A stretch of 64,000 bases of DNA from Telmatospirillum sp. (lineage in GTDB: Bacteria > Pseudomonadota > Alphaproteobacteria > CACIAM-22H2). The notes under the pieces are model-generated. The model was not told the origin of the DNA, did no database searches, and worked only from the letters and a program-made list of their open reading frames with translations. Position 1 is the first letter of the stretch. Each line of letters begins with the position of its first letter. A program made the translations under genes and the position numbers. The stretch lies in assembly GCA_020248985.1 (NCBI GenBank), contig JADCGL010000007.1, positions 1-64,000 on the forward strand, in the 5' to 3' direction. Shown here in pieces: positions 41,955 through 42,028 of the stretch.

Positions 41955-42028
41955 CTGTCGCGCAAATGTCGCGTCCAGGTCGCGCGAACGGCGCATCTAT
42001 GTCGCGTGAATGTCGCGCAGATGTCGCG
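41955..42028 (-). repeat. 11-bp-period tandem array A (core CGCGACAT)
   Basis: Seven copies of an 8-bp core CGCGACAT, each separated by 3 bp, giving an exact 11-bp period. In plus coordinates copies begin at 41955, 41966, 41977, 41988 (degenerate), 41999, 42010 and 42021. The array starts about 35 bp after the stop codon of the AsmA-like gene, reads in that gene's direction, and ends in TTTTTC. A related array lies at 54573-54657. Confidence 0.85.

Follow-up and report, generated by a model that had tools for sequence, protein, structure and literature searches.

A phased 11-bp repeat array at the end of an AsmA-like gene and its sequence-defined family of boxA- and IHF-type elements in Telmatospirillum

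The window analysed here is the whole stretch of 64,000 nucleotides from Telmatospirillum sp. (contig JADCGL010000007.1, positions 1 to 64,000). Between positions 41956 and 42028 its plus strand reads TGTCGCGCAAATGTCGCGTCCAGGTCGCGCGAACGGCGCATCTATGTCGCGTGAATGTCGCGCAGATGTCGCG, which is a row of seven units on an exact 11-bp lattice with a degenerate fourth unit (CGGCGCA). The row runs toward a convergent gene, and the features that surround it, together with those of a second element in the same window, are collected in Table 1. The seven units, the exact grid and the variable 3-bp spacers that the original prediction had described were confirmed, with conserved cores and varying spacers. TRF detects the array at period 11, and period 22 scores better. 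A T-run said to close the array is present on the minus strand. With an 8-bp unit plus 3 bp, the period is indeed too short for CRISPR, as had been stated.

Table 1. Coordinates of the reported array, its surroundings and the second element of the window
Feature	Position	Strand	Observation
Array: 7 units RYGTYGCR + 3, 11-bp lattice	41956..42028	+	Lattice reading, TRF, genome-wide pattern search
A-tract between IHF-like core and array (T-run on the minus strand)	41950..41954	+	
IHF-like core TTACAATATCTTG, 2 mismatches to WATCAANNNNTTR	41933..41945	+	At -23 from the array, the value seen most often in the family
Single inverted unit TGCGACGT, left of the IHF-like site	41914..41921	-	-19 from IHF core here and in the G004 ortholog
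ATG of leaderless-type frame, open through the array	41835..41837	+	At the place of boxA, exactly -121, in the reported copy and two orthologs
-10-like hexamer TATATT of the array-containing RNA unit	41823..41828	+	Orthologous loci of three other species carry a similar hexamer at this place
Convergent gene, YhdP/AsmA-like protein (Pfam)	42063..45350	-	Stop codon 34 bp beyond the array
Second element: array, 7/8 lattice positions recognised as units	54573..54656	-	Ends 9 bp from the stop codon of its convergent gene
Second element: IHF consensus, exact, AATCAAGCGCTTA	54677..54689	-	
Second element: boxA TGCTGTTTGAAATTGTGAA	54767..54785	-	Motif shared with the genome's own 16S rRNA leader
Second element: hairpin directly 5' of boxA	54788..54806	-	

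The array had been called non-coding, and this point is unsettled: the ATG frame that begins at 41835 on the plus strand crosses the array without a stop, but it has no codon-position bias and therefore gives no evidence of a conserved peptide. The claim that the array lacks self-complementarity was incorrect, as CGCG is itself a palindrome, although the RNA of the arrays folds no better than shuffled controls. The mean folding z in the arrays was -0.38 for the RNA strand and -0.78 for the other strand; RNA structure inside the array was rejected, the lower folding energy of the RNA strand being due to base composition. Complementarity between adjacent spacers was not convincing, and the order of the spacers carried no convincing pairing signal. 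No terminator-like site was found in 41700-42150, and an intrinsic terminator of the AsmA gene was ruled out because this region has no GC hairpin followed by a T-run. A Rho utilisation site was also considered and set aside; the 11-nt spacing might suit Rho on paper, but the units are G-rich and boxA would work against it. When the window and the loci L001-L004 were compared with Rfam 15 at the gathering score, two tRNAs matched and nothing else, so that a known RNA family was rejected for the array elements.

The genome-wide search for further copies that had been proposed was carried out with three tandem units and at most three mismatches. It returned 46 matches in the 4.3-Mb genome and 0 for a reversed control pattern. 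Nearly all of the 46 lattice matches lie in 14 arrays, of which the second element in the window is one, and the period is 11 in every copy. Neither a lack of further copies nor a varying period, named beforehand as refuting outcomes, was thus observed. Among the matches listed from a pattern search of 60 relatives, arrays occurred in three other genomes of the genus and in 0 of the 50 genomes outside it; the genus sample consists of eleven partly incomplete genomes. The counts given below refer to a set of at least 57 arrays from four species. Because orthologous loci are not independent, these 57 arrays represent roughly 20 loci.

Exact matches to the pattern were also obtained elsewhere across about 85,000 species; most of them, also in other phyla, are repeats with constant spacers, and none has a boxA; a wide distribution of the family was rejected for this reason. 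The occurrence of short tandem arrays of the same unit in such unrelated genomes is what functionless tandem-repeat slippage would offer, but in the Telmatospirillum arrays the spacers vary while cores and period stay, and the near-identical spacers of a microsatellite are not found. Slippage is already contradicted by these observations and is almost certainly not the explanation.

The array loci are one-to-one orthologous in the four species, and nearly every locus of the studied genome (G000) has partners. This result speaks against a mobile miniature element as a recent event, which had been one of the suggestions. The genes adjacent to the arrays, named from sequence and in the case of AsmA/YhdP by Pfam, include rpoD, rpoH, a HIT protein, a histidine kinase, an adenylate cyclase, AsmA/YhdP and others. 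Some copies in G004 have no partner among the loci retrieved from the other species. At one of the G004 loci an array is convergent with rnd, and its flanks differ from those of the presumed empty site in the studied genome (G000:C24). At the latter site (L242), where rnd has no array, an IHF-like motif, TTTCAGATGCTTA, directly follows the rnd stop codon.

A common order of parts is seen in most copies when the array is read as TGTCGCG: an AT-rich region with a -10-like hexamer, a hairpin, boxA, a diverged body, an IHF site, an A-tract and the array, which mostly has 5-8 units RYGTYGCR+3. Upstream of the elements the sequence is AT-rich, and TATAAT-like hexamers are commoner there than in control stretches. 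Directly 5' of boxA lies the hairpin, with a mean z of -1.47, compared with -0.18 in control stretches taken 100 nt upstream; its stem sequences are unrelated between loci. In most arrays of the four species boxA, YGCTGTTTGAMA..GTGAA with 0-1 mismatch, is found 84-175 nt before the array. The 16S leader of this genome has a boxA of this form, CACGCTGTTTGACAAGTGAA, and since GCTGTTTGACA..GTGAA occurs both in that leader and in most elements, these elements belong by sequence with the rRNA-type boxA leaders. The end of the rRNA operon has no array, and the array was consequently rejected as a general terminator of boxA transcripts. Nearly all arrays end close to a convergent gene, and the distance to its stop codon is mostly 0-70 bp; this answers the original question of where arrays lie relative to stop codons. 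In the C42c group, one locus has a co-directional downstream gene and not a convergent one.

Overall, at the level of sequence, the reported array can be identified as the distal module of one member of a family of transcription-unit-like elements, which is multicopy and has been retained by vertical descent, and the architecture of this family is well supported. Two readings in the original prediction did not survive this comparison. The statement that the array reads along with the upstream gene was a choice of strand, and the evidence points to transcription of the opposite strand. A 3'-UTR element of the AsmA gene is disfavoured by the promoter-like region, hairpin and boxA that the family carries on the opposite strand, converging on the neighbouring gene. 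Because these parts precede the array on that strand, functional transcription probably does not follow the orientation of the AsmA gene.

Of the 57 arrays of the four species, 20 contain the IHF consensus WATCAANNNNTTR without mismatch (0.2 expected) and 40 contain it within one mismatch (2.6 expected). The reported copy has two mismatches, while its G003 and G004 orthologs match the consensus exactly. The genome contains a gene for IHF beta. Measured from the first unit, the site starts at -23 or, one turn further out, at -33, and the remaining offsets differ by about one lattice unit, as would be expected if the first unit were degenerate. A single unit also lies on the left side of the site; in the -23 class it is inverted and lies in most cases at -17 relative to the IHF core, and for the -33 class it is direct and at about -31. 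Between G000 and G004 orthologs, boxA is 94% identical. The fixed positions of the IHF site are 81% identical versus 43% for its 'N' positions, and the unit cores are 81% identical versus 42% for the spacers, with 55% for the rest. This contrast between cores and spacers, and between fixed and N positions, is the pattern expected from selection on what would be DNA-protein contacts.

The boxA motif is missing in 11 arrays, which correspond to three orthologous loci. The reported locus is one of them, and there the reported copy has no boxA but its G004 ortholog has one. All 11 arrays without boxA (11/11) are preceded by an open frame, compared with 1/46 of the arrays with boxA. These frames have a Shine-Dalgarno-type start and read up to or into the array; the reported locus has instead a leaderless-type ATG, at the same distance in three species. 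Signs of peptide conservation were absent at the boxA-less loci where this was tested. Since the boxA-less arrays sit behind an open reading frame, the common factor seems to be protection of the polymerase from Rho on its way to the IHF/array module, whether by boxA or by ribosomes (for the role of boxA with Nus factors, see PMC5725501).

Early Rho termination would be sufficient if only the convergent gene had to be shielded, and protection from Rho may thus point to the RNA itself as the product. The elements would then form a family of non-coding RNAs in which the 3' array, with AUGUCGCG every 11 nt, acts as a multivalent binding site, or as a sponge, for other RNAs or an RNA-binding protein, and boxA secures the full-length transcript. 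Such a reading is in line with the replacement of boxA by a frame, with the fact that boxA and the hairpin 5' of it work at the RNA level, and with unit variants that are mostly C/T and G/A changes. It is weakened by the folding, pairing and Rfam results given above and by the position of an IHF consensus with free N positions, a DNA feature, right before the array. On balance we regard an RNA product as rather unlikely.

A candidate for a protein that would bind the array on DNA comes from one locus, where a conserved gene encoding a protein of 178-182 aa is followed by an array, with 26-34 nt between its stop codon and the array. This protein has a resolvase-type helix-turn-helix (HTH) domain (Pfam HTH_7, HTH_23) and no catalytic domain. 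Among 41 genomes searched, full-length relatives were found only in the four that have arrays. A paralog occurs in the four array genomes and in the remaining genomes that have non-rRNA boxA elements of the family kind (G006, G007 and G008), and is absent from the other genus and family genomes searched. The link between the HTH protein and the arrays thus consists of one adjacent locus and of presence and absence. The reading as a phased protein-binding array, which had been proposed first, is favoured by the lattice, the fixed IHF site, the conservation of the cores, the drifting spacers and this co-occurring protein. The array of the HTH gene (L035, near C12:5091-5152) faces a small convergent gene that looks DUF1127-like by eye and has its own hairpin and T-run in the opposite direction. 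A CCTANNTAGG-like palindrome follows the -10 region of the HTH gene (C12 locus, L035) and of several RNA units of the family, which suggests a shared promoter-proximal regulator.

A sister type of element has the same boxA and an IHF-like core with GGTAACC-type units, partly arranged as a hairpin. At one locus three species have the GGTAACC-type module and the fourth has a TGTCGCG array, and the two modules therefore appear exchangeable. The distribution of the two proteins fits one HTH protein for each array type, but this correspondence is confounded by the phylogeny of a single genus. Where the surroundings were read, the gene of the paralog sits in front of mtnP; the GGTAACC module is absent there, and the paralog was rejected as a neighbour of that module. 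In G006 and G007, boxA units at six loci (L131, L132, L139, L140, L145 and L149) end in GGTTACC or GTCAAC around an IHF-like core, and these motifs represent a second and third unit alphabet.

The two module types at one locus, the copy number, the resolvase-type domain of the HTH protein and the G004 copies without a retrieved partner could all be expected of a domesticated or decayed BIME- or MITE-like element that spread once in an ancestor with the HTH protein as helper and is now drifting. We consider this origin improbable as an explanation, since conservation is specific to the motifs while the body drifts, and together with the orthologous positions this points to selection; moreover, the HTH protein has no catalytic domain.

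Two published reports establish that DNA-bound proteins can act as transcriptional roadblocks (PMC10310618, PMC4132739). As a tentative proposal, which we hold with clear reservation, the module may be a switchable roadblock and boundary, formed by the HTH protein and IHF between the RNA unit and the convergent gene. The HTH protein would bind the array units side by side on the same face of the helix, and IHF would fold the DNA so that the single unit on the left meets the row on the right. The RNA unit would send polymerase into this complex, shielded from Rho by boxA or, where boxA is missing, by translation. With the complex bound, the RNA would stop short of the convergent gene (AsmA, rpoD, rpoH, the histidine kinase, the adenylate cyclase and others); with the complex released, the protected polymerase would continue antisense into that gene. 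Because the HTH gene has the same module at its own 3' end, it would be self-regulated. The phased direct repeats with IHF, the many chromosomal copies and their old, stable positions might also come from chromosome-organising or centromere-like sites, in which HTH protein and IHF form nucleoprotein knots at gene ends and the RNA unit clears or loads them. A promoter and a boxA at nearly every site would be unexpected for a purely structural role, and we judge this possibility, too, to be improbable.

Several known systems resemble parts of the family. The BIME/REP-IHF elements of E. coli (RIB, RIP) are interspersed extragenic DNA near gene ends, with repeated units and an IHF site, and the present family is likewise multicopy, extragenic, near gene ends and built of repeated units with an IHF site. 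However, its units are direct 11-bp repeats on one strand, without the REP palindromes that alternate in orientation, it has in addition a promoter, hairpin and boxA, and the HTH protein gene ends in the same module as the family. CRISPR leaders have a boxA and an IHF site, and the order of promoter, boxA, IHF site and direct repeats is shared; the 8-bp unit with 3 variable bp, by contrast, is far from CRISPR repeats of about 21 bp or more, which alternate with unique spacers of comparable size. In parC of plasmid R1, 11-bp repeats are bound by ParR, an oligomeric DNA-binding protein. The phased 11-bp direct repeats are similar, whereas the present family is chromosomal, has many copies and is combined with an IHF site and a boxA RNA unit; its only linked protein has a resolvase-type HTH (HTH_7/HTH_23), while parC-type centromeres work with a ribbon-helix-helix protein such as ParR and with ParM. 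The rrn nut region shares the hairpin followed by boxA, as in the genome's own 16S leader, but here boxA heads short non-rRNA units, and the rRNA operon lacks the array at its end. PhoB/OmpR-type operators repeat a 7-bp motif every 11 bp; the arrays of the family differ in their position at the 3' end of transcription units, in their copy number of mostly 5-8 and in an HTH protein of another type. BIME/RIP elements, CRISPR leaders, R1 parC and rrn nut each share a part, and no described family was found for the whole in the open-access literature.

To our knowledge, little is known of antitermination by boxA beyond rRNA, phages, suhB and CRISPR leaders, and control at gene ends has been little studied. 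The elements might, although this is as tentative as the roadblock itself, represent a new class of chromosomal control element, in which rRNA-type antitermination drives polymerase into an IHF/HTH array at a gene end, and in which two or more paralogous HTH proteins with their own alphabets (TGTCGCG versus GGTAACC) control a regulon of gene-end gates. The family would join boxA units to a predicted DNA-protein-type site beside central genes (rpoD, rpoH, the histidine kinase, the cyclase) and supplies a candidate protein; if this were true, protected transcription, roadblocks and convergent antisense control would be testable in one system.

Two further features were observed near the reported array. 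A group of minus-strand genes at 38323-41227 encodes a GNAT-domain protein (512 aa), an ASCH-domain protein and a 281-aa protein without a Pfam match beside a tRNA gene (41185-41272, minus strand), and looks like a small island at a tRNA gene. Between 41427 and 41723, also on the minus strand, a gene encodes a 98-aa protein that matches HTH_3 weakly and resembles HigA-type antitoxins; an adjacent toxin gene was not recognised.
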